The notes under the pieces are model-generated. The model did not search any database. It saw nothing but the letters and a program-made list of their open reading frames with translations, and was not told the origin of the DNA. DNA of 49,977 nt, from the IMG/VR virus record IMGVR_UViG_3300031722_000050, positions 1 to 49,977 of that record. One strand, 5' to 3'. Shown piece after piece: positions 1 through 17,141 of the stretch (position 1 is the first letter of the stretch; each line of letters begins with the position of its first letter). Both the position numbers and the translations under genes were made by a program. This DNA is from a virus.

Positions 1-16
1 CGTAATCAACGCTAAG

Positions 17-523
17 ATGACAAAAACAGAACTTTGGGACTACATGACTCAAGAAGTAAGAGAATATATGGGAATGAGGTACTTCCAAACTACCCGTTGT
101 CTACTTACAGCGGAACAGATCGATCATATTTGTGAAAGTGAATTAGCCGTATTAGAAAGTTACAAAAAGAAAGAAGAAATCTACGGCCAAGCACACCTTG
201 AGAGTATGGGACTCAAACCTGGAGATAAAGTCACTATTCGATTACACGAATACCAGGATGATTCAATCCACTGCTTCCAAACCGCTCAAGAATGCGAATG
301 CTACATCTTCGGAAGCTACGGACTTGATAATGACCTTCTCATACTCAGAAAGAAAGGTAAAAAGAAAGAGCTCAGATTTAACCAATTTATATCATGGGAC
401 TTAATACATGACGGCAAAGTCGTTTGGAGTCGCATAAATCCTCAAAATATCATCCCGGGCACTTACACTGATGAAGAACTTGCAAGGATAAGAATTCGAC
501 TCTCTGAACTGCAAAAATTATAG
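17..523 (+). CDS. Hypothetical protein, 168 aa
   Basis: I do not recognise this soluble protein. The N-terminal half is helical and charged (residues 1-60); the middle (about 66-130) looks beta-rich and begins with a PGDKVTI stretch like those in small beta-barrel domains. No signal peptide or membrane segment is visible. It ends in TAG, as do many genes in the first 9.5 kb. A host-type promoter follows directly, so it closes a transcription unit that enters from the left edge. The start at 17 may not be the true one because little upstream sequence is available. Confidence 0.7.
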   Translation: MTKTELWDYMTQEVREYMGMRYFQTTRCLLTAEQIDHICESELAVLESYKKKEEIYGQAHLESMGLKPGDKVTIRLHEYQDDSIHCFQTAQECECYIFGSYGLDNDLLILRKKGKKKELRFNQFISWDLIHDGKVVWSRINPQNIIPGTYTDEELARIRIRLSELQKL

Positions 524-530
524 CTCCAGC

Positions 531-563
531 GTTTTCAATATTGATAGAATTGTATTAAATTTG
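531..563 (+). promoter_or_regulatory. Early-type promoter, cassette copy 1
   Basis: A TTTT element (532-535) is followed about 20 nt later by TAAATTTG (556-563), matching the known Bacteroidota consensus TTTG / TAnnTTTG. The block CGTTT..TTGATAGAATTG, the -7 box and the following TATTGTAATTAAAAAT are nearly identical in the copies at 1276 and 2431. It lies 24 nt before the next start codon. Confidence 0.75.
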
Positions 564-586
564 TATTGTAATTAAAAATAAAACTT

Positions 587-1105
587 ATGAACAATATTCC
601 CTCACAATTAGAAGTCGATAAACGACACATTAAAGAGCACTACAAACTTCTTATCAAGAACGCTCATAACCATCTATCGAATGATCCGATCTTTACTCAT
701 TCAGACATGGCCAATATGCTTTCAATTTGTACTGGAATTAACTCTTCCACGATCTTCAATGACATTGAGAACTACAAAGAAACAGTAGATGTCACAGTAA
801 TCGATCCTCGTCACGAACTTCTTCTGAAACAGAAAGCCAAACTGGAAAAGTCCCTCAAATTTTACGGTCATAAAATCTATTGTTCATCTGTTAAAAACAA
901 TGGCAGGGCCACAGAAGATTGTGATATCGCAATCGATATCAAAGTGGACAACGCTCCTACTTCCCTTCGCGAAATAACTAAATGTATCCTAGATGCTACT
1001 GATAGAGTGGAATCAGATGACCTTTGGATATTCCACGGAATCATCAATGACCCTTACGATAATGGCAACACAAGAATGTACCGCCTCAAATTTCTGATAG
1101 ACTAA
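587..1105 (+). CDS. Hypothetical protein, 172 aa
   Basis: Unrecognised protein translated from the first repeated promoter. Residues 1-80 are helical and polar; 85-172 alternate strands and helices. It has no membrane segment or clear catalytic motif. Its stop overlaps the next start (TAATG at 1103-1107), so the two genes are translationally coupled. It is probably an early host-interaction protein, an inference from promoter type and neighbours only. Confidence 0.7.
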   Translation: MNNIPSQLEVDKRHIKEHYKLLIKNAHNHLSNDPIFTHSDMANMLSICTGINSSTIFNDIENYKETVDVTVIDPRHELLLKQKAKLEKSLKFYGHKIYCSSVKNNGRATEDCDIAIDIKVDNAPTSLREITKCILDATDRVESDDLWIFHGIINDPYDNGNTRMYRLKFLID

Positions 1106-1266
1106 TGACACTATTTGGAAGTGATTGGAAAGAAGAAGAGGATGACTACGATAACTTCTCTGTTAACATAGATAAGGAAGAAGAGGACTACGACAAGTCC
1201 TTTTCAACCAACATCGAAAAGGATGAAGAAGACGAAGACAGTTCGATAAAACATTTTCAAGATTAA
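1105..1266 (+). CDS. Very acidic small protein, 53 aa
   Basis: This 53-aa reading frame starts in the stop of the previous gene (TAATG). It is dominated by Asp/Glu, with two similar halves (NFSVNIDKEEEDYD and SFSTNIEKDEEDED), so it appears to be an internal duplication. Such acidic phage peptides sometimes mimic DNA or bind basic host proteins; that is speculation. Coupling and continuous codon use support that it is real. Confidence 0.55.
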   Translation: MTLFGSDWKEEEDDYDNFSVNIDKEEEDYDKSFSTNIEKDEEDEDSSIKHFQD

Positions 1267-1275
1267 TCATCTTAC

Positions 1276-1308
1276 GTTTCCCCACTTGATAGAATTGTAT
1301 TATATTTG
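1276..1308 (+). promoter_or_regulatory. Early-type promoter, cassette copy 2
   Basis: GTTTC (1276-1280) and TATATTTG (1301-1308) are separated by about 20 nt. The intervening TTGATAGAATTG and downstream TATTGTAATTAAAAAT repeat copies 1 and 3 almost exactly. The first start codon downstream is at 1333. Confidence 0.75.
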
Positions 1309-1332
1309 TATTGTAATTAAAAATTAAACAAT

Positions 1333-1434
1333 ATGAAACGTATCAAACAACTCATCAAAAAATCTTCTCCTTGGGAAATCACCCTCTTTTCATGTCTTGT
1401 ATTCTATGTAGTAGGTCAAATCATCTGTTCTTAA
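1333..1434 (+). CDS. Small single-span membrane peptide, 33 aa
   Basis: A Lys/Arg-rich N-terminus (residues 1-10) precedes one hydrophobic segment (about 16-32), the usual shape of a small inner-membrane peptide with a cytoplasmic N-terminus. It is first behind promoter copy 2 and ends 4 nt before the next start. Function unknown; size and hydrophobicity fit a host-membrane effector, but nothing proves it. Confidence 0.5.
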   Translation: MKRIKQLIKKSSPWEITLFSCLVFYVVGQIICS

Positions 1435-1438
1435 TATT

Positions 1439-1822
1439 ATGGCAACCCCGCATACATTCACACTCACAGACGACATCAGAAAACACATTCTTCTTACACT
1501 TTGTCAGATAGGTGGTATCTCAGATGTTTCTTCAGATACTCAACGGAAGAATGGAACTATCTTCATTTTCGATACTGAATCAAAAGTCTACTACGGCATT
1601 TATTCATCAGGATATGTACGTAGAATAGTTAAACACGTCGGTTGGAATCAGATGTATCAGATAAACCCAGTGATAAAAGTCAAACGCCCTGCTAATTATG
1701 GAAATGACCAGTACGTAAGCTACATGGTAGATCGCATACTCTTCACTGACCCTATCGAAGCTATGTATTGCTGCATCAGAGGAATCTTAAACAGACGCAA
1801 AGATTATTATCGTAATCATTAA
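1439..1822 (+). CDS. Hypothetical protein, 127 aa
   Basis: Unrecognised soluble protein. Residues 10-25 form a probable helix, 40-65 look like beta strands, and the C-terminus is basic (RRKDYYRNH). It follows the membrane peptide at 1333 in the same unit, and a strong inverted repeat (1836-1878) follows it. Confidence 0.65.
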   Translation: MATPHTFTLTDDIRKHILLTLCQIGGISDVSSDTQRKNGTIFIFDTESKVYYGIYSSGYVRRIVKHVGWNQMYQINPVIKVKRPANYGNDQYVSYMVDRILFTDPIEAMYCCIRGILNRRKDYYRNH

Positions 1823-1835
1823 CAGCAAGGATAGA

Positions 1836-1878
1836 CCAAGTTTAAGACGTTTCCTTCGAGTATTCGTCTTAAACTTGG
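1836..1878 (+). terminator. Perfect 14-bp inverted repeat with 15-nt loop
   Basis: CCAAGTTTAAGACG (1836-1849) pairs perfectly with 1865-1878 around a 15-nt loop. There is no T-tract, so it may be an RNA processing or regulatory hairpin and not a classical terminator. The loop and first arm bases (1851-1868) recur exactly at 2276-2293. Confidence 0.55.
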
Positions 1879-1904
1879 AACCATCATTAATATAAACCAT
1901 TATC

Positions 1905-2117
1905 ATGGAACAGCCTATCACACTAGAAGAACTTCGTCAATATCTAATCGATCTCGCTAATGGATATTTGACTCCAGAATGTACTGAGAATTTCATCGAA
2001 TGTGTACTTCGTTATAAAGACATCCTTCAAACCTACCGAGAAGTTGACATTTTCGTCCAAGGACTCTTTCAGGAATTTGAACTAATCGAACTAGATCCAT
2101 CAGAAGAAGATGAATAA
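1905..2117 (+). CDS. Small acidic protein, 70 aa
   Basis: All-helical, acidic protein ending in a Glu/Asp-rich tail (ELDPSEEDE). No family recognised. It lies between the two copies of the TTCCTTCGAGTATTCGTC repeat and starts 26 nt after the upstream hairpin. Confidence 0.6.
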   Translation: MEQPITLEELRQYLIDLANGYLTPECTENFIECVLRYKDILQTYREVDIFVQGLFQEFELIELDPSEEDE

Positions 2118-2128
2118 CAAATAGACAT

Positions 2129-2257
2129 ATGAACCCATTCAAACTCTGGTTACTGTATTGCATTTACTGTTCAAAGAACAATATCGCAGCTCCCTCGTAT
2201 GGAGATTTCATGAAAGGAAAGACTACTACGTTCATAGATTTCGGATTAAATATCTAA
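2129..2257 (+). CDS. Small hypothetical peptide, 42 aa
   Basis: Short reading frame with a hydrophobic N-terminal stretch including two Cys (residues 7-14), then a polar C-terminus. The region GFMKGK-like to the end resembles nothing I know. Its last codons lie in a 6-bp inverted repeat (GGATTA/TAATCC, 2243-2260). Support is limited to frame continuity and position. Confidence 0.4.
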   Translation: MNPFKLWLLYCIYCSKNNIAAPSYGDFMKGKTTTFIDFGLNI

Positions 2258-2348
2258 TCCATTATCCAACGCCAATTCCTTCGAGTATTCGTCCTTAATC
2301 TTAAAGACTCCTAAATAGGTACTTATTACTAATCAAAATGCTACAGAC

Positions 2349-2429
2349 ATGAAACTTACATTCCCAAAAGTCGTCATTTCGTTCTACGTCTTATCAATCT
2401 GTTTCATTCTTGCACTTCTTTTTATCTAG
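2349..2429 (+). CDS. Single-span membrane micropeptide, 26 aa
   Basis: Starts MKLTFPK and continues as one unbroken hydrophobic segment to the TAG stop. It resembles the peptide at 1333 in architecture (basic start then one membrane helix) and ends right at promoter copy 3. Too short to be sure it is translated. Confidence 0.35.
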   Translation: MKLTFPKVVISFYVLSICFILALLFI

Positions 2430-2430
2430 C

Positions 2431-2463
2431 GTTTCCCACTATGATAGAAATGTGTTATATTTG
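2431..2463 (+). promoter_or_regulatory. Early-type promoter, cassette copy 3
   Basis: GTTTC (2431-2435) and TATATTTG (2456-2463) have the same spacing as copies 1 and 2, followed by the same TATTGTAATTAAAAAT leader. It differs slightly in the spacer (ATGATAGAAATG). The start codon of the next gene is 25 nt downstream. Confidence 0.75.
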
Positions 2464-2487
2464 TATTGTAATTAAAAATAAAACCAC

Positions 2488-2583
2488 ATGGAAGAAGATT
2501 GGATCGATAATAATACATCAATTTACGATTGTAAAACATGCAAAATAAGAAACTGTCAATTTTGCTCTAACAATATAATATGA
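2488..2583 (+). CDS. Cys-rich small peptide, 31 aa
   Basis: Contains two CxxC pairs (CKTC and CQFC, about residues 15-27), as in a one-metal zinc knuckle. Its TGA overlaps the next ATG (ATGA at 2580-2583), which supports translation. Function unknown. Confidence 0.5.
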   Translation: MEEDWIDNNTSIYDCKTCKIRNCQFCSNNII

Positions 2584-2939
2584 GAGACATGGCTAACCCA
2601 ACAACGAAAGCAGAATACCTTAAACATCGTACCTCTAGACTATCTCCGGATAAGCTGACTAAAGGGATGAAGGTGTTAGTTATCGTATGTTACAAAAGCA
2701 AGCATGATACTGAGAAAGTACATTACTTCTACAGTAAGCACTGTACGGTATCCACCCTTAAGACTCGGAAAAGTGGTCATACAGAGGTATGGCTTACAGA
2801 TGACGATGAGAAGGAATGGAGAAGAATAAGCTCTATCATCCTCGATAAGCAGGACTTTTACCGTACATACGGAAGTGGAACTTCAGGAACCTCATTCTTG
2901 GTAATGGATAACACACCTGTAATACAGGAAGCAATCTAG
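2580..2939 (+). CDS. Hypothetical protein, 119 aa
   Basis: Basic in the first half (KAEYLKHRTSRLS), beta-rich in the middle (MKVLVIVCYK), with a GSGTSGTS linker near residue 97 that echoes the GTS repeats of the fibre proteins. A second in-frame ATG at 2589 is an alternative start; the ATGA overlap favours 2580. It ends TAG followed two codons later by another in-frame TAG. It is the last gene before the non-coding region. Confidence 0.65.
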   Translation: MRDMANPTTKAEYLKHRTSRLSPDKLTKGMKVLVIVCYKSKHDTEKVHYFYSKHCTVSTLKTRKSGHTEVWLTDDDEKEWRRISSIILDKQDFYRTYGSGTSGTSFLVMDNTPVIQEAI

Positions 2940-2969
2940 GAGTAGATTGCTTGTGATTCATCCACCTAC

Positions 2970-3139
2970 TGCTTGTACTTAGATGCGCACTATAGGTGCC
3001 CAACTTGAAGGGAACATAGTGGACAGCTTAGCAAGCAGTTAGGAGCAAGTAAGGTACAAGCAGCTGCAAAGCTTGTGCAAAAGGATCAGCTGCTTGTACA
3101 AAGGTGCGCATATAGGTGCCCAACTCGCAGAGAACATAG
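2970..3139 (+). repeat. Two imperfect ~50-nt direct repeats
   Basis: Copy A (2970-3019) and copy B (3091-3139) share TGCTTGTAC, TGCGCA, ATAGGTGCCCAACT and GAACATAG in the same order, offset by 121 nt, with small substitutions between blocks. Neither is inside a reading frame I would call. Confidence 0.7.
3054..3099. repeat. 13-bp perfect inverted repeat
   Basis: GTACAAGCAGCTG (3054-3066) is the exact reverse complement of 3087-3099, with a 20-nt loop. The right arm begins repeat copy B, and most of it (TGCTTGTAC) also occurs in copy A (2970-2978), so the left arm could pair with either. Confidence 0.65.
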
Positions 3140-3178
3140 GGCGGGGCTAAGCTAGATTCTCCCTGGTTCGATCTGCAT

Positions 3179-3269
3179 CAGATTCTTCAGTTCTTTCAGA
3201 CTACCCAGATATCCTTCAGAGTACTCAGTATCACCTCAGATATTCCTCAGATAACCTCAGAGTACCCAG
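3179..3269. repeat. Helically phased CAG array
   Basis: CAG trinucleotides, mostly as TCAGA or CCAGA, begin at 3179, 3188, 3197, 3206, 3217, 3226, 3237, 3248, 3258 and 3267, i.e. every 9-11 nt. This near-helical phasing puts each copy on one face of the DNA, as in iteron arrays or nucleoprotein wrapping sites. Confidence 0.6.
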
Positions 3270-3410
3270 CTACTTCAACTACCACCATAGTAACGCAGCT
3301 ATGCATAGATACCTTATCAAATCCAACAACTATGAAGCTTTTGAAGCATGTTGAGTTATACACAGATTTGATCAGAGTAATCAGTTTCTTTTGAGTATCT
3401 AATTGGTTAT

Positions 3411-3449
3411 ATTGTATTCTATCAATTATTAGTAATTGTATTCTATCAA
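3411..3449. repeat. 15-nt direct repeat ATTGTATTCTATCAA
   Basis: Copies at 3411-3425 and 3435-3449 start 24 nt apart. On the minus strand each reads TTGATAGAAT, the same 10-mer found in the spacer of the early promoter cassettes, but no -7 box follows. Confidence 0.55.
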
Positions 3450-3460
3450 AATGAAAATGT

Positions 3461-3640
3461 ATGAATTATGTCTTAGGGTTCACTTTATTTCTAATAGGCT
3501 ATTTCCTAATATGGAAAATTATGGACTATGTAACTAATGGTGAATTTACACACGGATATCCAGCTATAATGATCGGAATGCCTATTATGCTGATTTATTC
3601 TATGTTTTATATTGTTCTATTCTTAACGGAGTTCAAATGA
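3461..3640 (+). CDS. Small membrane protein with two spans, 59 aa
   Basis: Two hydrophobic segments (about residues 3-20 and 36-55) are joined by a short polar loop (DYVTNGEFTHGYP). The TGA overlaps the ATG at 3637, so it is coupled to the first copy of the WWP paralogue family. It may be holin-sized but carries no diagnostic motif. Confidence 0.55.
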   Translation: MNYVLGFTLFLIGYFLIWKIMDYVTNGEFTHGYPAIMIGMPIMLIYSMFYIVLFLTEFK

Positions 3641-4083
3641 AAATCAAATCGAAAAAAATTACTTTATTGGAACAGGAAGCAGTGCTCAGAATTGCTATGT
3701 CATTGGTGAAAGACTCTGTTCAAAATAAAGGACTTTGTTACTATCTCTATACTGCATTAGTCAGTTACTCAAATGCCACAGGTAACATTAAGCAACCGTG
3801 GAAAATAACGCATACTAGTTTGGGAGAGTTCATCCCTCAGTTCAATTTGAAGACAGCAAAGAAGTATGCGAAACAACATCACTATGAAATGCCATTAACT
3901 AGACTAGATGAATCTACATTCAGTTCAGGGTATTGGTGGCCAGTTGATGATAAGCTATCGAGACTAGCATACTTGCATCAAATGATGGTGAGAGTGACGA
4001 TCCTTATTACTATTGGTGATTTATGGGAAAATGTGAAGTCAGATGTTAAAGAATCAATTACAAAACTAACGAAGTTGGTATGA
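3637..4083 (+). CDS. WWP-family paralogue 1, 148 aa
   Basis: First of four tandem paralogues (3637, 4080, 4998, 5621). Shared features: an N-terminal MKIKSxxITLLEQ stretch, GLCxY near residue 34, IPQF..KTAKKYAK near 68-80, and YWWPVDD..SRLAYL near 100-115. The pattern is reminiscent of small proteins common in gut Bacteroidota phages, but I know no function. It overlaps the next copy by ATGA, showing coupled translation. Confidence 0.7.
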   Translation: MKIKSKKITLLEQEAVLRIAMSLVKDSVQNKGLCYYLYTALVSYSNATGNIKQPWKITHTSLGEFIPQFNLKTAKKYAKQHHYEMPLTRLDESTFSSGYWWPVDDKLSRLAYLHQMMVRVTILITIGDLWENVKSDVKESITKLTKLV

Positions 4084-4517
4084 AAATAAAATCGGAAAGA
4101 ATTACACTACTGGAACAGAAAGGGATAGTTGAAAGTGTCATTAATTCACTGAAAACGTTAGATGATAAAGTAGGTCTTTGTAACTATACGTATAATGCAT
4201 TAATTAAGCATTTTGAGGGAACTGAACGTGAAAGGGATTCGTGGAAAATATCGTACAATACCTTGGGAGAGTTCATTCCTCAGTTTGATTACAAGATTGC
4301 AAAGAAATATGCAAAGAAACATAAGTTTGAAGTTCCAGAACTGTGTAATGAAACTATGGGATATTGGTGGGACGTCAAAAATAAAGTTGCACGTATTGCA
4401 TACTTTGAACAAATCTTAGTAAGAATTGAGGTTCTTATTGTATGGGAAGAAATGAAGACTAAGATTAAGAATCATTTAAAGGATGCTTACAATAAACTTA
4501 TAAAGTATGTACAATGA
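4080..4517 (+). CDS. WWP-family paralogue 2, 145 aa
   Basis: Closest relative of the gene at 3637: same start MKIKSERITLLEQ, same GEFIPQF..KIAKKYAKKH block. The WWP motif is degenerate here (YWWDVKNK), and the following R.AYFEQ block is kept. The C-terminus is Lys-rich and helical. Its last 11 nt overlap the gene at 4507. Confidence 0.7.
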   Translation: MKIKSERITLLEQKGIVESVINSLKTLDDKVGLCNYTYNALIKHFEGTERERDSWKISYNTLGEFIPQFDYKIAKKYAKKHKFEVPELCNETMGYWWDVKNKVARIAYFEQILVRIEVLIVWEEMKTKIKNHLKDAYNKLIKYVQ

Positions 4518-4737
4518 AAGTGGATTAGTATTTAAAGAGATATCTTCAGAGAAATCTAGAACTTATCGATGGGCTAATGGAGCTACTGTAACAATAGACA
4601 AGCCAACACATTTGAACGTAAGTGATAGTGGAGGTCATAGAATATTAGACAGTAAAATGGTTAGCCACTATATCCCTAGTGGATGGATTCACTTATCATG
4701 GGAAGTATTTGAAGGAAAACCAAATTTTGTAAAGTAA
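4507..4737 (+). CDS. Hypothetical protein, 76 aa
   Basis: Small, probably beta-rich protein with repeated Trp/Tyr (YRWANG, HYIPSGWIHLSWE). No recognisable family. It overlaps the previous gene by 11 nt and ends 1 nt before the next start, so it belongs to the same unit. Confidence 0.6.
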   Translation: MYNESGLVFKEISSEKSRTYRWANGATVTIDKPTHLNVSDSGGHRILDSKMVSHYIPSGWIHLSWEVFEGKPNFVK

Positions 4738-4738
4738 T

Positions 4739-4987
4739 ATGATTAAACTGTGTAGAATTCAGATTGAGACAGTAGAAGTCTTTAATCCTATTGGAGAAAC
4801 CGAGGGTTTCATAAATGAGATAGAGTTTCTCATTTTATTAGCTGATATCCGTGAGAAAAAAGAGACTGGATGGAAACTTAAATATGAAGATGAACTTATT
4901 GAAATACCGGTTGAAGGTAAAATTCCTAGGAGAGAATGTATTTTCCATCAATGGGATGATGCTATAGATCGGTTACTTGGAATCTAA
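4739..4987 (+). CDS. Hypothetical protein, 82 aa
   Basis: Acidic small protein with a strand-helix pattern and a Trp-containing end (FHQWDDAIDRLLG). No motif recognised. Placed between members of the WWP paralogue family and packed head to tail with them. Confidence 0.6.
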   Translation: MIKLCRIQIETVEVFNPIGETEGFINEIEFLILLADIREKKETGWKLKYEDELIEIPVEGKIPRRECIFHQWDDAIDRLLGI

Positions 4988-4997
4988 AATAAAGAAT

Positions 4998-5426
4998 ATG
5001 AAAGTAACTATAAAGTCGGATAAGATCGGATTACTTGATCAGCTACTAGTTCTGAGGAGAGCTGATGAAATTATGAGGAAAGATGTTGATACATTACCAA
5101 TGCCTCTTACTCATGGATTATGCTATTATGTAGCAGTAGCAATTAGAGAGCTTGGTTTTGTCGGACCTGATAATGTTGTTTTATCACACAGATATGTTCC
5201 TCAACTAAGATTTGAGGTTGCTAAAAAGTATTCTAGACGTTTTGGAATAAGTAAGCCAATAATGGCACACGATAGATACTGGTGGCCAAAAGATGATTTC
5301 ATATCAAGAAAAGCTTTTCTATTCATGATGATGCATGAAATCGAGTGGACAATAAGAGTGGATGAGATTAAACAGAGATTTGCCGGATATTTGAGATCAA
5401 TTAAAAACTATTTCAATGCTGAATAG
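4998..5426 (+). CDS. WWP-family paralogue 3, 142 aa
   Basis: Third copy of the family. I choose ATG 4998 over an upstream TTG (4977) because it gives MKVTIKSDKIGLLDQ, matching the N-termini of the other copies. It keeps GLCYY, VPQL..EVAKKYSRR and YWWPKDD..SRKAFLFMMM. It is longer between the N-terminal block and GLC than copies 1 and 2. Ends in TAG and overlaps the next gene by 11 nt. Confidence 0.7.
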   Translation: MKVTIKSDKIGLLDQLLVLRRADEIMRKDVDTLPMPLTHGLCYYVAVAIRELGFVGPDNVVLSHRYVPQLRFEVAKKYSRRFGISKPIMAHDRYWWPKDDFISRKAFLFMMMHEIEWTIRVDEIKQRFAGYLRSIKNYFNAE

Positions 5427-5688
5427 AACACAAATTTATGTATCAGGATTTGCAGCAGCTGTTCTGATTACAAAATACTTAGACGATAAGTTACCTAAAA
5501 ATAGAGATAAAGTTGTAGAGAATCCAATGCTCGGAGTATTTGGAATTGGCTTACTATGGCCATTAACATTACCTCTACTTATCGTTTTACTAATCGTATA
5601 TTTTTTTAAATTTAGACGAAATGCAAATAGAATCAAAAAGACTGACACTGAAACAACAGATTCAAGTACTGGAAAGAGCGAAGATTGA
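5416..5688 (+). CDS. Membrane protein, 90 aa
   Basis: A weak hydrophobic segment (about 7-20) and a strong one (about 43-66) are followed by a basic then Thr/Ser-rich tail. The last 68 nt overlap, in another frame, the start of the fourth WWP paralogue at 5621. No family recognised. Confidence 0.6.
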   Translation: MLNRTQIYVSGFAAAVLITKYLDDKLPKNRDKVVENPMLGVFGIGLLWPLTLPLLIVLLIVYFFKFRRNANRIKKTDTETTDSSTGKSED

Positions 5689-6280
5689 ACTATTCGAAGA
5701 TGACTGTAGAAGAGGATTATGTTGGCAAATAAGCAAATCTTTAGCTCATTATAATCATTATTGTAAAGGATATAATGATTTAGAGCGTTGTATTCCTCTA
5801 TTCACGTATGAGAATGCAAATTTCTACAGTAAAACTGATAAGCGAATAGAAAAACCTCGTGATACTAGTCATTGGTGGCCTTCTTATGACAGAAAAAGTA
5901 GAGAAGCTTTCTTAGATTGTATGATATGTGAAATTAAACAAGCAGATGATGGGCTAAAACCTCTACCCAGTGCAGCCGAGATGATTGACGAGAAGATGAT
6001 GGAAATGAATCGTAAACTTGCTAAGTTCAGAGAAACTACCAATAACATAATTCTAATGGATCCGATCGATATGGGTCCAGTATCAACTGAAGATGAAATA
6101 AGAAATCTGCAAAGTATAGGACGTGTAGAACGTTCAGGTAATACACCTGAAATTATATCACTAGTAAAAGAGTATGCATGTGACAATTGTAGAAATTATC
6201 CATGCAGTATTGGTGACTGGGAAGAACGTATGGAGAAAAAAGAGGTAGGTAAATGTGGTGATCAAACAAAAGTTTTTTAA
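5621..6280 (+). CDS. WWP-family paralogue 4 with Cys-rich C-terminal extension, 219 aa
   Basis: Residues 1-110 follow the family: MQIESKRLTLKQQ, RGLCWQI, IPLF..ENANFYSK and HWWPSYDRKSREAFL. Unlike the others it has about 100 extra residues, including a helical linker and a C-terminal segment with CDNCRNYPC and a final Cys (KEVGKC), a likely metal-binding knuckle. The family-type N-terminus fixes the start at 5621 despite the overlap with the membrane gene. Confidence 0.7.
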   Translation: MQIESKRLTLKQQIQVLERAKIELFEDDCRRGLCWQISKSLAHYNHYCKGYNDLERCIPLFTYENANFYSKTDKRIEKPRDTSHWWPSYDRKSREAFLDCMICEIKQADDGLKPLPSAAEMIDEKMMEMNRKLAKFRETTNNIILMDPIDMGPVSTEDEIRNLQSIGRVERSGNTPEIISLVKEYACDNCRNYPCSIGDWEERMEKKEVGKCGDQTKVF

Positions 6281-6300
6281 TTTTCACAAAATATGTTATT

Positions 6301-6564
6301 ATGAATAAAGGAGATAAGATAACGATTGCAGTAAAAACTGATTTCGGAGAACAGATAGTTAAATTCGAAGTTTTTGCGGTACTAGATAATGCACCGGGAG
6401 GAAGAATAGCATTTATTTCTCCTAACAATACAATAGTTGTTGGTGAAAAAATTAATAGATGTTGGAGATTGTCTGAACCTGTTAATCTTCCACACGTATA
6501 CATAAATCCGGATAAAGTACATAGACATATCGAAAATAATGATTGTATTGTAGATGTACAGTAG
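6301..6564 (+). CDS. Hypothetical protein, 87 aa
   Basis: Beta-rich small protein beginning MNKGDKITIAV, typical of small beta-barrel folds. A purine-rich AAAGGAG lies inside the first codons, not upstream. Its TAG (6562) is followed by another in-frame TAG (6580), and then by the next gene's ATG in the same frame. Confidence 0.6.
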   Translation: MNKGDKITIAVKTDFGEQIVKFEVFAVLDNAPGGRIAFISPNNTIVVGEKINRCWRLSEPVNLPHVYINPDKVHRHIENNDCIVDVQ

Positions 6565-6588
6565 AAAAATACTCAAATATAGCTTGAA

Positions 6589-6834
6589 ATGGTCACTGAT
6601 TTCCATCTTGATCATCTGTATAATAATCCTCTTGAATATCATTTTATGAACTATTGGACATACGAAGAGTCAAAAGCTCATATGGCAACCCATTATCCCA
6701 ATATAAAGACAAAAGCCCAATTTGTGAAAAAAATGCAAGGTTGGGCAGTAGGTTTTCTACCACTAAGGCCTAACAAAACATATAAAGATTGTGGTTGGGT
6801 TTCTTGGAAAGATTTTTTAAATTCAAACTTTTAG
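6589..6834 (+). CDS. Hypothetical protein with P..Y..GW.SW.DFL motif, 81 aa
   Basis: The C-terminal half (LRPNKTYKDCGWVSWKDFL) resembles the short repeat 'P..P...Y...GW.SW.DFLG' found in various phage and bacterial DNA-associated proteins, usually in several copies; only one is present here. I recognise the motif but not a function. Ends in TAG, 2 nt before the next start. Confidence 0.6.
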   Translation: MVTDFHLDHLYNNPLEYHFMNYWTYEESKAHMATHYPNIKTKAQFVKKMQGWAVGFLPLRPNKTYKDCGWVSWKDFLNSNF

Positions 6835-6836
6835 AT

Positions 6837-7031
6837 ATGGTAAGAGATACTACAAAATATTTTAATTGGTGGTGGGGAACTTCTGCTAGAAGAATAGTAA
6901 AAGAAGCAAGAGATTTAACTGATAGTGAATTAAAAGTTTTGTACTATATGTATGATTGGACTATTAGTAAAGGACCTCAACATATTCAAAGAAGATGTTT
7001 AGAACGTGAAATACGAAAAAGAAAATTATGA
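6837..7031 (+). CDS. Hypothetical protein, 64 aa
   Basis: Helical, basic protein with an NWWWG cluster near residue 10. I prefer ATG 6837 to a TTG/ATG upstream at 6789 because it starts just after the preceding stop. Its end overlaps the next gene (ATGA). Confidence 0.55.
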   Translation: MVRDTTKYFNWWWGTSARRIVKEARDLTDSELKVLYYMYDWTISKGPQHIQRRCLEREIRKRKL

Positions 7032-7219
7032 AATTAACTAAAGAAATTACAGCTTGGTGGAATTCTTTAACACCCTGTGAAGCAGTATCGAACATGTCAT
7101 TCATTTCTAAGATGGTTAAAGAATATAGTTTTCCAGGTGGTCCAGAAGTTGAAAAAACAGTTTCTATGACTACTATAGCAGTACAATCATTTATTCTTTT
7201 AAATCCAAAATTAAATTAG
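7028..7219 (+). CDS. Hypothetical protein, 63 aa
   Basis: Small protein with a mixed polar and hydrophobic profile, without a clear membrane helix. It is coupled to the gene upstream through ATGA and ends in TAG. No family recognised. Confidence 0.5.
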   Translation: MKLTKEITAWWNSLTPCEAVSNMSFISKMVKEYSFPGGPEVEKTVSMTTIAVQSFILLNPKLN

Positions 7220-7228
7220 CATAATAGT

Positions 7229-7735
7229 ATGTGTTTAAGAACCTCTCAAATTATTCCACGATTTGCATGGAAAGATATCGTAGTGTACAAAAATTGTGAA
7301 ATCTATCTTAAGTATGAAGGTGATGAATTCAATCCCACAGTGATAGAATTGAAAGCTGCTGTGAGAAGAGGACATGTATACAATAAAAAAGAACGTTCCG
7401 GATTAGGAGTGAAAGTTGTTCAAAATTCATTATTTAATTATCGTGCTAATATCGAAGAAGGATTGCATGCTAATATAAACAACAAGTTTCGTAACAATAC
7501 TGAATGGATTATACCAAGAGGTTCATGTTACTATAAGTCTGAGTCTGAGATAGTATCTACCAGATTGAACTTTTCAAGACTACTACCTTATAATCATAGT
7601 AATCTAAATGGTGAAGCAGGAGAATATCTATACATCTTAGATCCTGATCACCATGGATATTGGGGCAAATGGTCACATGAAAAACACTTCATCATACAAT
7701 GGAAAGATAATACAACAACTTTAACTGAATGTTAA
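7229..7735 (+). CDS. MCL-family paralogue 1, 168 aa
   Basis: One of three paralogues (7229, 7737, 9059) that begin MCLxT and carry A..DI.VYK.C near residues 14-25. They share a later block EEGLHAN..KFRNNT.WIIPRG..YY. Similar short proteins starting MCL with a 'KEDI..YK' and 'IPKG..YY.G' core are common in gut Bacteroidota and their phages; I recall no assigned function. This copy has an extra C-terminal 40 residues. It starts 9 nt after the previous stop. Confidence 0.7.
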   Translation: MCLRTSQIIPRFAWKDIVVYKNCEIYLKYEGDEFNPTVIELKAAVRRGHVYNKKERSGLGVKVVQNSLFNYRANIEEGLHANINNKFRNNTEWIIPRGSCYYKSESEIVSTRLNFSRLLPYNHSNLNGEAGEYLYILDPDHHGYWGKWSHEKHFIIQWKDNTTTLTEC

Positions 7736-7736
7736 T

Positions 7737-8267
7737 ATGTGCTTAAAAACTACACACTTTTTCCCAAAAACTGCCAAGCAAGATATTTTAGTATATAAGC
7801 ATTGCAGAATTATGGGTGTTTTCAATCAATCTACGCTTGAAAAGAAAAAATATTTTCTTGGATCAAACAGTTTAGGATATTATCGTAATGAATTTTACAA
7901 TACTGTAGATACTACTATCTATCGTCATGATGAATACAATTCACGAAAAGAAGAATATTGTGCTATTCAATTACGAGGTTCTTTTCAATCTTCTTACTTG
8001 TATAGTAAAGAAGAAACTGCAACGTTTAAGAAAACTTTTAAATTGGATGGGTTCTTTTGGATGATAGATGATGGTCTTCATGCTAGAGTTTCCACTAAAT
8101 TAAGGGGATCAATAAATACTATTTGGATAATACCAAAAGGTACAAAATACTATTTGGGTACACAGAATGATATTGTAGCAGAAAAGATGATATTTGAAAG
8201 TTTTTATGGACCGATGAAAACGAAGACAGAAAAAATGGAGAAGCTAATAAAGTGGAGAGATGAGTAG
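7737..8267 (+). CDS. MCL-family paralogue 2, 176 aa
   Basis: Second copy: MCLKTTHFF, AKQDILVYKHC, DDGLHARVSTKLR and IPKGTKYYLGTQNDIVAE are all present. It has a longer insert between the N- and C-terminal blocks (about residues 30-95) than copies 1 and 3. It ends TAG, overlapped by the start of the gene at 8260. Confidence 0.7.
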   Translation: MCLKTTHFFPKTAKQDILVYKHCRIMGVFNQSTLEKKKYFLGSNSLGYYRNEFYNTVDTTIYRHDEYNSRKEEYCAIQLRGSFQSSYLYSKEETATFKKTFKLDGFFWMIDDGLHARVSTKLRGSINTIWIIPKGTKYYLGTQNDIVAEKMIFESFYGPMKTKTEKMEKLIKWRDE

Positions 8268-9057
8268 TTATACAAAATTCATAAAGAAATATTCCGATAT
8301 ATCTGAAAAGCAGATACAGATGTTAGTAAAATTGTACGATAAACTAACTGATATTGATTCACAACGTACAAAAGCGGTTAAATACTTGGTCATGTATGAT
8401 GCATACATTCAGTTTGCATCAAATAATCCTTCTAGTAAAGCCACAAGAAGGAGAAATGCAGTTAGACATGAAGCTTACGTAGAATTCATAAACTTCAGAG
8501 ATTTAGTTGATGCATATAATGATGCGTATTCTTCAATTATCAAATTGAACGATAGTAGAGATGATATTAAAGCTGAATTATTCGATATTTTCATAAAAGA
8601 ATTTACTATGGATAGCATTCATATTGAACCAGCTGAAATAAAATTTATCATGGATCAATTTGGCTATAGATATGCTAGTGAACGAGATTGGACACAGAAG
8701 TTAGCTACATTATTTCCTCTATGGTCAAATGATGATTTCGTACATGCTTCTCATCGGATTGGACCATATCCTGTATTTTCAACTGAACATCAGTATCATT
8801 TTTCATCTAGTAGCAGCTCATACTTTAATATCGACAAAGACAGAAATAGAAAAATGTCTGTAGGTTGTTATCTGTATCGTAGTATATCAGACTGGAAATA
8901 TGTCATAGAACCGATGATAATAGAAGAATCTAAATTAAAGCCAAAAAAGATTAGTACTACGATAAAAGAAAAAATTGTAGAACTTAAAGAAGTTGCACAG
9001 TTTAATCCAAATTGTGATAAAATAGAACAAGAACAAGAACAAGAAAACATTTTATAA
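8260..9057 (+). CDS. Hypothetical protein, 265 aa
   Basis: The N-terminal 140 residues are strongly helical with several Lys/Asp-rich amphipathic stretches. A Ser run lies near residue 186, and the C-terminus ends in a short Glu-Gln repeat (EQEQEQEN). No domain recognised. It sits between two MCL-family copies and is tightly packed with both. Confidence 0.65.
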   Translation: MSSYTKFIKKYSDISEKQIQMLVKLYDKLTDIDSQRTKAVKYLVMYDAYIQFASNNPSSKATRRRNAVRHEAYVEFINFRDLVDAYNDAYSSIIKLNDSRDDIKAELFDIFIKEFTMDSIHIEPAEIKFIMDQFGYRYASERDWTQKLATLFPLWSNDDFVHASHRIGPYPVFSTEHQYHFSSSSSSYFNIDKDRNRKMSVGCYLYRSISDWKYVIEPMIIEESKLKPKKISTTIKEKIVELKEVAQFNPNCDKIEQEQEQENIL

Positions 9058-9058
9058 T

Positions 9059-9499
9059 ATGTGCCTACAAACTACCCATTACTTTGCCAAAACTGCTAAG
9101 AAAGACATAGAAGTCTATAAAAAATGTTCTGTAGTATTAGTAGAAAAAGCTACTGAAACTAAAAATGAGAAAATTGCATTATACGGACATTTCTTTGAGA
9201 ATCATTGGTATTCTTTGAGAGAAACAGCAACATTCAAGAAACGTAAAACTTCCCAACATTTTGTAGAATTAGGTTGGTTTTATAAACACTTCAGATGGGA
9301 CATAGAAAATGGACTACATGCTAAACGTGAAAGCACTGGATTTTCGAATACTGTTTGGCGTATACCTAAAGGTGCTAAATATTATGTAGGTACAAATGGC
9401 GATATCGTTTCGGACGAATTAATATTTCTTAGATTTAAAAGCGTGCATGATTATCCAAAGTCTGATATTCTATGGTGTGCCGATAATTTTCTATTGTAG
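9059..9499 (+). CDS. MCL-family paralogue 3, 146 aa
   Basis: Third and shortest copy: MCLQTTHYF, AKKDIEVYKKC, ENGLHAKRESTGF and IPKGAKYYVGTNGDIVSDEL. It is nearer to copy 2 than to copy 1. It ends TAG, the last TAG-terminated gene until 42688, and is followed by a promoter-like sequence. Confidence 0.7.
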   Translation: MCLQTTHYFAKTAKKDIEVYKKCSVVLVEKATETKNEKIALYGHFFENHWYSLRETATFKKRKTSQHFVELGWFYKHFRWDIENGLHAKRESTGFSNTVWRIPKGAKYYVGTNGDIVSDELIFLRFKSVHDYPKSDILWCADNFLL

Positions 9500-9518
9500 C
9501 ATGCATTTGTTATATTTT
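9487..9518 (+). promoter_or_regulatory. Probable host-type promoter
   Basis: TTTT (9487-9490) and TATATTTT (9511-9518) are separated by 20 nt, as in the other host-type promoters, but the final G of the -7 consensus is missing. It precedes the gene at 9543. Confidence 0.45.
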
Positions 9519-9542
9519 ATCTAATCATTAAAATAAAAAAAT

Positions 9543-10004
9543 ATGAGTTTACTTCTAGGTTTTACTTTATTTGGCAGTTCGTGGATTCTCGCATTGTCAT
9601 TGTTAATCTTTATTATTCTCCTTTTCGTTTCAGATTTGTCTGACAGTGGATCATCTGCATTTGCAGTAACACTTGTCTTTCTTGCAGTGAATTACTTATG
9701 GGGAAATTTACCGGTATTGCATGTATTTACATGGAAAAATATTATCGGATACGTCCTAATCGGTTTCATCTTTTCATTAATCCGTACTTATTTTAAAGGA
9801 AAAGAATTAAGCACTACTGAAAAGAGTGATTTCGATCTTAGATTTGCAGTATTCAGATGGTGGTTTTTATGGCCAGTATCATGTTTAAATTGGGTATTTG
9901 GCAAATTATTCATGGATGCATATGAATTCATCTATGGTAAAATAGAGAACTTATTCGTAATGCTATTTAACGCCGGAAATAAAAAAGAAAAAGATGTCAA
10001 GTAA
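9543..10004 (+). CDS. Multi-span membrane protein, 153 aa
   Basis: About four hydrophobic segments (roughly residues 5-30, 38-55, 65-82 and 105-122) with a basic C-terminus (NKKEKDVK). No transporter or lysis motif seen. Likely in the host inner membrane. It has its own promoter-like sequence and overlaps the next gene by 11 nt. Confidence 0.65.
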   Translation: MSLLLGFTLFGSSWILALSLLIFIILLFVSDLSDSGSSAFAVTLVFLAVNYLWGNLPVLHVFTWKNIIGYVLIGFIFSLIRTYFKGKELSTTEKSDFDLRFAVFRWWFLWPVSCLNWVFGKLFMDAYEFIYGKIENLFVMLFNAGNKKEKDVK

Positions 10005-10692
10005 ATTTATCTTTTTGCATACATCAAGAGGATCGAGAACGAGTGTTCGTACAGCTATTACTGCATACGATAAAGAAGATTTTTTGACTCTATTATCTGA
10101 TCCCGATCAAGTTAAAGCACTTGGAGGTAGATGGAAATATTCAAAGTCTGGTGAATTAGCTGTTACTCTAACATCTATGACTCCAGTACAATATAAAGAA
10201 TGTTTCGAAGATATCGTTATCAAAGATGAATCTCTATGTGTATTCAGCAAAGTTGTAGCTAAACGTTTTGCTACTGTAAAGAAATCCGGTACTGGCATAA
10301 TAACGAAAAAACATTTGACAGTAGGACATGTTTATTTGTTGCAAAATAGACCGTATGTATATTATGGTAAAGTGAATATCAACTATAGTGTTACTGCCGT
10401 GAAACATTCTACAAATAAGTATGGATTTGAATATCAAGAAAAAGTTTTGGAATTTCACACGGTTCAAGGTTATCTTGCATTGCCGTATAGATTAAATTCT
10501 GAATTTTCAGCTGCTAGTAGTCTTTCTAATTTCTCCGTTATCACAAACTTTGGATTTCGCAACATTGAAAGCTATGTTACTGCTGAACCTCGTAGATTTA
10601 AACAAGGCCCAGCTAAAATAATTGATGTGCCACTAACGTTAAATTTACAAGGTACTGAAAAAACTACCGCTGATATAGAATTTTATTTATGA
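9994..10692 (+). CDS. Hypothetical protein, 232 aa
   Basis: Beta-rich protein with many aromatic residues from residue 105 on (VYLLQNRPYVYYGK). No catalytic motif, signal peptide or membrane span is visible and no family is recognised. It is coupled to the membrane protein upstream and to the small helical protein downstream (ATGA at 10689). Confidence 0.65.
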   Translation: MSSKFIFLHTSRGSRTSVRTAITAYDKEDFLTLLSDPDQVKALGGRWKYSKSGELAVTLTSMTPVQYKECFEDIVIKDESLCVFSKVVAKRFATVKKSGTGIITKKHLTVGHVYLLQNRPYVYYGKVNINYSVTAVKHSTNKYGFEYQEKVLEFHTVQGYLALPYRLNSEFSAASSLSNFSVITNFGFRNIESYVTAEPRRFKQGPAKIIDVPLTLNLQGTEKTTADIEFYL

Positions 10693-10928
10693 ACGATGTA
10701 AGAGGAAAGTTAATTTCTAGATTACGTGACATGTATAATGCTAGGACACAAACAGAAAAAACATTTGTATGTAATCTGAGATTTTATACTGATCATGCTA
10801 AAATAACTGAATATGTAGATATACTGACAGAGTTCAGAGGACGTATACAAGAACTTGAATATGTTCTTACTATAGAAGAAGTTGAAGAAGTTAGGAAAGA
10901 GCTCGGCATAAGTAATAAATTAAACTAA
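10689..10928 (+). CDS. Small helical protein, 79 aa
   Basis: Predicted all-helical with a Glu-rich second half (IEEVEEVRKELG). It is the last + strand gene before convergent genes and ends at a bidirectional terminator. Function unknown. Confidence 0.6.
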   Translation: MNDVRGKLISRLRDMYNARTQTEKTFVCNLRFYTDHAKITEYVDILTEFRGRIQELEYVLTIEEVEEVRKELGISNKLN

Positions 10929-10958
10929 AAAAGAGGAGAACTTTGATTCTCCTCTTTT
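10929..10958. terminator. Bidirectional hairpin terminator
   Basis: A 12-bp stem (AAAAGAGGAGAA with its complement) and 6-nt loop; A- and T-tracts on both sides allow function on either strand. It separates the convergent genes ending at 10928 and 10965. Confidence 0.85.
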
Positions 10959-16112: not shown

Positions 16113-16445
16113 ATGCTATAGATTAAAGAACCGAAACTAGTCATTATTACAAGATCTGATATCCACCCTGGATATCAAGTTGTACAATCCGCTCACTCAA
16201 TAGCTGATTTTGCACATATTTACCCTGATAGATTTTCCTCTTGGAAAGAGGAATCGAATTCCATTATCTGTCTATCAGTTCCTACAGAATTACATTTAGA
16301 TTTTTATTACGATAAATACAAGGATGTCACTGAAGTGTCAAAGTTCTACGAACCAGACATTGATCAGTGTACATCCTTATGTCTATATGCAAATTCCCCC
16401 ATAAGAAAAGAACTATCTAATTTACCCCTAATTTTAAAAAAATAA
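16113..16445 (+). CDS. Peptidyl-tRNA hydrolase PTH2-like protein with in-frame TAG at codon 3
   Basis: From codon 4 on, an open frame of 107 codons encodes a PTH2-type fold: KLVIITRSDIHPGYQ (first strand and substrate loop), then VVQSAHSIADF, the family AQ.aHa helix. PTH2 enzymes release peptides from stalled peptidyl-tRNA. The frame opens ATG CTA TAG ATT AAA, so the only ATG is followed by an amber codon at 16119-16121; no ATG, GTG or TTG lies between it and the conserved core. Options are amber readthrough, initiation at ATT 16122, re-initiation after a two-codon minigene, or a sequence error. The family call is fairly firm; the mode of expression is open. Confidence 0.65.
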
Positions 16446-17060: not shown

Positions 17061-17141
17061 GGTCTTCGAACATAATGCCCGGTGGACTAGGCGTCAGATT
17101 CTAACCCTGATATGTAAGAGGTTCGAATCCTCCGGAGACCA
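17061..17141 (+). tRNA. Unusual tRNA with predicted CTA (amber) anticodon
   Basis: Acceptor GGTCTTC (17061-17067) pairs with GGAGACC (17134-17140); A17141 is the discriminator and CCA is not encoded. The D arm is GCC..GGC (17077-17092) with a GG-containing loop. The anticodon arm TCAGA/CCTGA (17094-17098 and 17106-17110, A-C mismatch at the loop end) has loop TTCTAAC, giving anticodon CTA. The T arm is AGAGG-TTCGAAT-CCTCC. Seven extra nt lie between acceptor and D arm; ACAT (17070-17073) can pair with ATGT (17112-17115), forming an additional helix. A CTA anticodon would read UAG. Amino-acid identity is not clear. An Arg TCT reading needs a broken anticodon stem and is less likely. Confidence 0.7.

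Follow-up and report, generated by a model that had tools for sequence, protein, structure and literature searches.

A conserved stop codon near the start of phage PTH2 and HD-domain genes as a probable gate opened by the phage's own suppressor tRNA

A gene of the PTH2 family in a virus record of 49,977 nucleotides (hereafter the window) carries an in-frame amber codon soon after its start, and we propose that this codon acts as a translational gate on a module of PTH2 and HD-domain genes, a gate that would be opened by the phage's own suppressor tRNA (probability roughly 0.85). The window is apparently a fragment of a jumbo phage, and its relatives include uncultured phages of 462–735 kb as well as Tenacibaculum phage pT24, which is cultured. 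Ribosomes starting at the ATG at 16113 would normally terminate at the third codon; once the CUA suppressor tRNA encoded at 17061-17141 is made, processed and charged, UAG would be read as an amino acid and the PTH2 protein would be produced. In related phages, a partner HD-domain protein would stand under the same gate. We favor read-through because it explains together the frame, the identity of the stop, the behavior of gene fusions and the linkage to tRNA genes. A broader proposal, to which we give somewhat better than even odds, is that large phages possess a natural translational licence in which a phage tRNA is the dedicated signal that switches on a PTH2 and HD hydrolase module via a near-start stop. 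This licence would serve phages whose hosts belong to two phyla or more, probably three, would be older than the fusion and fission of its genes and than the codon-anticodon switch, and would be doubled in some lineages by an amber-sensing transcription attenuator.

The window frame lies on the + strand (16113-16445) and opens with ATG (16113-16115), CTA (16116-16118) and TAG (16119-16121), followed by ATT AAA GAA. Past the TAG, the frame stays open up to a TAA at 16443-16445 and encodes a conserved PTH2 core of 107 codons with no internal stop (16122-16442). No start codon (ATG, GTG or TTG) separates the TAG from the conserved core, and the single in-frame GTG, at residue ~70, is so deep within the core that it could not start the whole PTH2 domain. 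The original prediction of ATG-CTA-TAG before a PTH2-like core was borne out by this reading, by the relatives and by a 73.5-kb contig (L001) with an identical encoded protein and an identical early stop. Because the window is a metagenomic fragment, a sequencing error, a pseudogene or a chance ORF might be suspected; yet the early stop is also present in independent assemblies and in the cultured phages pT24, XacN1, RAS14, CBB, GAP32, ME3 and Arash, and the protein after it is conserved. We regard the probability of such an artifact as negligible, the conservation of the early stop refuting both error and pseudogene.

The window protein is PTH2-like by descent, with putative peptidyl-tRNA hydrolase activity. 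It matched PHROG 1866 (E = 2e-10), a profile matched structures of archaeal Pth2 (E = 1.5e-6 to 6e-6), and the window protein scored 16 bits against Pfam PTH2, under the 23-bit cutoff that relatives passed (26 bits for L003, 31 for L089 and 32 for pT24). The top three Foldseek matches to the PTH2 model (pLDDT 82) were M. jannaschii Pth2 (probability 0.92–0.96; TM ~0.6), at E-values of only 0.14–0.21. Q22, H25 and D79 are conserved in the phage proteins, and the Gly-Lys of the archaeal active-site motif is Gly-Tyr-Gln in most of them.

The original prediction had named a normal ATG aligned at 16122 in relatives as a finding that would count against it. Comparison of the 5′ ends showed the opposite, with an in-frame TAG kept between the ATG and the PTH2 core (22/22 genomes compared). 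Close relatives mostly open with ATG-NNN-TAG-ATT, and the TAG is also found at codon 4, 5 or 9, with ATA or GTA after it in some. Over all cases, the stop ranges from codon 2 to about codon 9 and is always in frame with the start, and the leader that holds it is poorly conserved, so the identity of whichever residue is supposedly inserted is unlikely to matter. We compared early-stop frames all-against-all in 24 contigs, with TAA and TGA as controls. The only convincing coding clusters of early TAG were PTH2 (22/22 genomes) and an HD-domain gene (6 genomes), while in the same comparison no TAA or TGA cluster extended beyond four genomes; the early-TAG pattern is far beyond chance.

Wider tallies were made after removal of near-identical genes and included loci from an HD profile scan of IMG/VR (70 loci). 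Of 66 distinct PTH2 genes from phages, 50 had an early TAG and one an early TGA; the remaining 15 comprised eight that lie behind a gated HD domain in a fusion, one starting GTG-TAG, three with a normal start beside a gated HD gene and three that were unclear. The corresponding counts for distinct HD genes were 42 of 65 with TAG and 3 with TGA, the other 20 being behind a gated PTH2 (7), beside a gated PTH2 (6), preceded by a TAG further upstream (1) or normal or unclear (6). At least one member of the pair was gated at 68 of 80 distinct loci; counting against the gate, a few PTH2 or HD genes have a normal start. The more distant PTH2 genes of Lak phages and LR745208 are without an early TAG. 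A second in-frame TAG-ATT occurs within the PTH2 gene of L090 (LR756501; ~4095), and PTH2-like genes without an early stop adjoin tRNAs with a UUA anticodon in L092 and L093.

The stop was seen to follow the module through its fusions. Where the HD-domain gene is fused behind PTH2 (pT24, G009, G011 and G013), a single amber serves the whole fusion, and a separate HD gene in the same set of genomes has its own amber. Cultured phages of Gammaproteobacteria were reached by tblastn with the HD protein. In XacN1 and RAS14 the fusion has the reverse order, HD-PTH2, and starts ATG AAG TAG, with the stop ahead of the HD domain. TAG is codon 4 of PTH2 in CBB, GAP32 and XbC2, which have a further TAG inside HD; ME3 starts ATG ACT TAG ATT and Arash ATG CTG TAG AAC. 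The HD protein gave a structure model of high confidence (pLDDT 95) and scored just under the cutoff for Pfam HD; its weak similarity to part of an enzyme labelled poly(A) polymerase was at E = 0.06, and Foldseek with the model returned no match below 0.001. If the gate operates as proposed, the starts annotated for many PTH2 and HD genes of phages are predicted to be wrong. The proposal lends itself to testing, since some of the phages are in culture.

The arrangement was found in jumbo phages of Bacteroidetes and Gammaproteobacteria. Two mycobacteriophages show a similar pattern, I3 (ATG TAG GTG; CUA tRNA 0.3 kb downstream) and Myrna (GTG TAG GTG; CUA tRNA 0.13 kb downstream), which is only suggestive because GTG comes after the stop. 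RaK2, with ATG after the TAG, and Hallingskeid, with no TAG, were negative cases for the gate. Going by the title of a 1979 paper, amber mutants of I3 were reportedly isolated using a host suppressor, and for this reason the I3 tRNA may be a weak rather than a strong general suppressor. ARAGORN assigned a CUA anticodon to two tRNAs annotated otherwise, in Arash (L336:3461-3535, annotated tRNA-Phe) and Myrna (L428:1963-2034, annotated tRNA-Ser).

The proposed decoder lies 0.9 kb downstream of the window PTH2 gene, on the + strand at 17061-17141. ARAGORN and Rfam recognized no tRNA in the window since this one is atypical, so we turned to a custom finder and to a covariance model. The element has an 8-bp acceptor stem, a 4-bp T stem, an 8-nt linker ahead of the D stem and a 9-nt anticodon loop. 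The same odd form of 80–81 nt with 8/4 acceptor/T stems was found in the window, G002, G003, G004, G007 and W01, with covariance-model matches also in W02 and G010 (one strong match per genome; 8 records), and the form is listed for the window, L003, G002, L004, L098, W01, W02 and G010. Across six genomes, 98.5% of cells in the cloverleaf were paired and 14 of 22 pairs showed compensatory change, a level reached by none of 500 shuffles. The linker holds a conserved TAA before the D stem, and the anticodon loop is of 9 nt in most; pairing of the linker with the variable loop in the six genomes, weak in W02 and G010, is suggestive and we do not claim it. From this covariation, the window element is a tRNA cloverleaf with a CUA anticodon and a putative nonsense suppressor.

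CUA tRNAs lie near gated genes at many loci. ARAGORN assigned CUA to 35 of the 156 tRNAs that it called in the tallied loci and, by itself and so missing the odd forms, placed a CUA tRNA at 25 of 65 TAG-type loci; it recognized no suppressor tRNA in, for example, G006, G008, G012/W03 and G014. In W01 and W02, the suppressor tRNA is more than 100 kb from the gene, which, like the genomes with none recognized, weighs against the gate. In L103, L105 and L108, a short sequence resembling a CUA tRNA but lacking a clear D arm lies ~0.2 kb directly upstream of PTH2. The authors who described the XacN1 suppressor tRNAs looked for a target gene and reported finding none (PMC5852040); the gated module, if real, would supply jumbo-phage suppressor tRNAs with the target sought there in vain.

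The strongest evidence for read-through is a match between the stop and the anticodon. TGA takes the place of TAG in three contigs (L380, L355 and L357), all of which carry UCA tRNAs, whereas ARAGORN called no UCA tRNA in TAG-type genomes totalling 3.9 Mb. In L380 the PTH2 and HD genes both carry TGA, and two UCA tRNAs lie ~1.1 kb upstream of PTH2; L355 and L357 have TGA in HD, with UCA tRNAs elsewhere on the contig; the switch thus rests on just three cases, with genes and tRNA side by side only in L380. The sole exception to the match is an odd UCA-type tRNA call (L369:959-1034) on a TAG-type contig.

This match also bears on the other mechanisms that had been raised, in which ribosomes stop at the TAG and re-initiate at the ATT at 16122, or the first codons form a two-codon minigene serving as a sensor for drop-off of peptidyl-tRNA, the suppressor tRNA being incidental. 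ATT can serve as a start codon, as in infC, and it is the commonest codon after the stop (49 of ~82). The lambda bar minigene, AUG AUA UAA, is a likewise short AUG-codon-stop tied to Pth biology. We consider both mechanisms quite unlikely. Re-initiation at ATT lost its footing because the next codon is often another (GTA, GTT, ACC, AAC or AAT), and a minigene of the lambda bar type does not fit the position of the stop (codon 2 to about 9), its constant frame, its identity or its match to the tRNA, with TGA occurring where the tRNA is UCA. The further option in the original prediction, amber read-through by the nearby suppressor-like tRNA, gained support from the conserved in-frame stop, from the linked tRNA genes and from the pairing of TAG with CUA and of TGA with UCA.

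Lak phages, which are related, are recoded, and a CUA tRNA is present here too, as would be expected if the genomes used genetic code 15 (TAG = glutamine) and the early TAG were one of many recoded codons. That is very improbable: in the window, 9 of 69 ORFs terminate in TAG, as do 4–17% of genes in 15 related genomes, no large window gene has an in-frame TAG, and conserved early TAGs are limited to PTH2 and HD across the 24 contigs. Use of TAG as an ordinary stop in gated genomes means that the code is not reassigned, and on this ground we reject genome-wide code 15. Back-up stops after TAG-ended genes were not enriched, immediate ones being fewer if anything, which together with the share of TAG stops indicates that suppression cannot be strong and general. 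TAG stops are unevenly spread in the window, ending 8 of 24 ORFs in 1-10950 and 1 of 45 in 10950-49977 (Fisher p = 0.0006).

Recoding under code 15 by suppressor tRNAs has been described in crAss-like and Lak phages (PMC10879173, PMC13037316). There, as proposed here, a phage CUA tRNA reads UAG in a standard-code host, but many genes contain TAG there, whereas here a conserved early TAG is confined to one module and TAG is still an ordinary stop. Pyrrolysine-type decoding of UAG also employs a dedicated CUA tRNA for few genes; it differs in its dedicated synthetase, which was not seen here, and the residue here would fall in a variable leader and not in an active site. Work on jumbo-phage PTH2 (PMC7824862) and on the XacN1 suppressor tRNAs (PMC5852040) concerns the same protein family and the same tRNAs, and the available parts of these papers neither connect PTH2 with tRNAs nor mention an early amber. 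The suspicion that the arrangement was undescribed has held up within the open-access literature, where we found no description of a tRNA-gated PTH2/HD switch (subscription papers were outside the search). As decoding, this would be nonsense suppression of the ordinary kind, and the novelty would lie in the arrangement, with a tRNA serving as the signal for a single gene module under an otherwise standard genetic code.

While the stop, its restriction to the module and its tRNA partners can be read from the genomes, we infer that read-through occurs and that regulation is its purpose. One candidate purpose is feedback, in which PTH2 is made through the gate in proportion to suppression and relieves the damage that suppression does by leaving peptidyl-tRNA dropped off or stalled. 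The gated product is, by family, a peptidyl-tRNA hydrolase, and E. coli prfB offers an analogue: the gene for release factor 2 is autoregulated through an early in-frame UGA, so that RF2 synthesis responds to termination at UGA. There too a stop placed early and in frame registers competition at that codon and governs the making of a translation factor. The two differ in that prfB relies on a +1 frameshift, with no suppressor tRNA involved, whereas the phage stop is UAG or UGA with a matching phage tRNA linked and the core always continues in the frame of the ATG. A role in freeing peptidyl-tRNA during ribosome rescue has been proposed for jumbo-phage PTH2 (PMC7824862). Feedback nevertheless appears doubtful, though possible, since the comparison of 24 contigs turned up no further conserved genes dependent on an amber for which suppression would pay, and catalysis is itself putative, with Gly-Tyr in most of these proteins in place of the archaeal Gly-Lys. 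We only slightly prefer licensing, by which the module would be made only once the phage tRNAs are in place, and we hold it as a weak guess.

In four genomes other than the window, transcription seems to be a second point at which the gate acts. In W01, W02, G005 and G006, a leader ORF of the form ATG-(ATG/AAT)-TAG-ATT-...-CCT-CCT-TAA lies upstream of PTH2, and the codons at its end supply the 5′ arm of a hairpin, which is strong (z = -4.9 to -6.8) and is followed by a U-rich stretch, as in an attenuator. The same leader element is listed upstream of PTH2 at L086, L087, L096 and L097. A ribosome that passed the leader amber would cover the hairpin arm, allowing transcription to go on. Mini-ORFs that have TAG-ATT early on and end alike in IRGPT (MR*IVIRGPT, MK*IKITIRGPTYLF) were also observed upstream of other genes (G009:29475(-), G011:7584(-) and W04:111483(-)), and these are possible further amber leaders.
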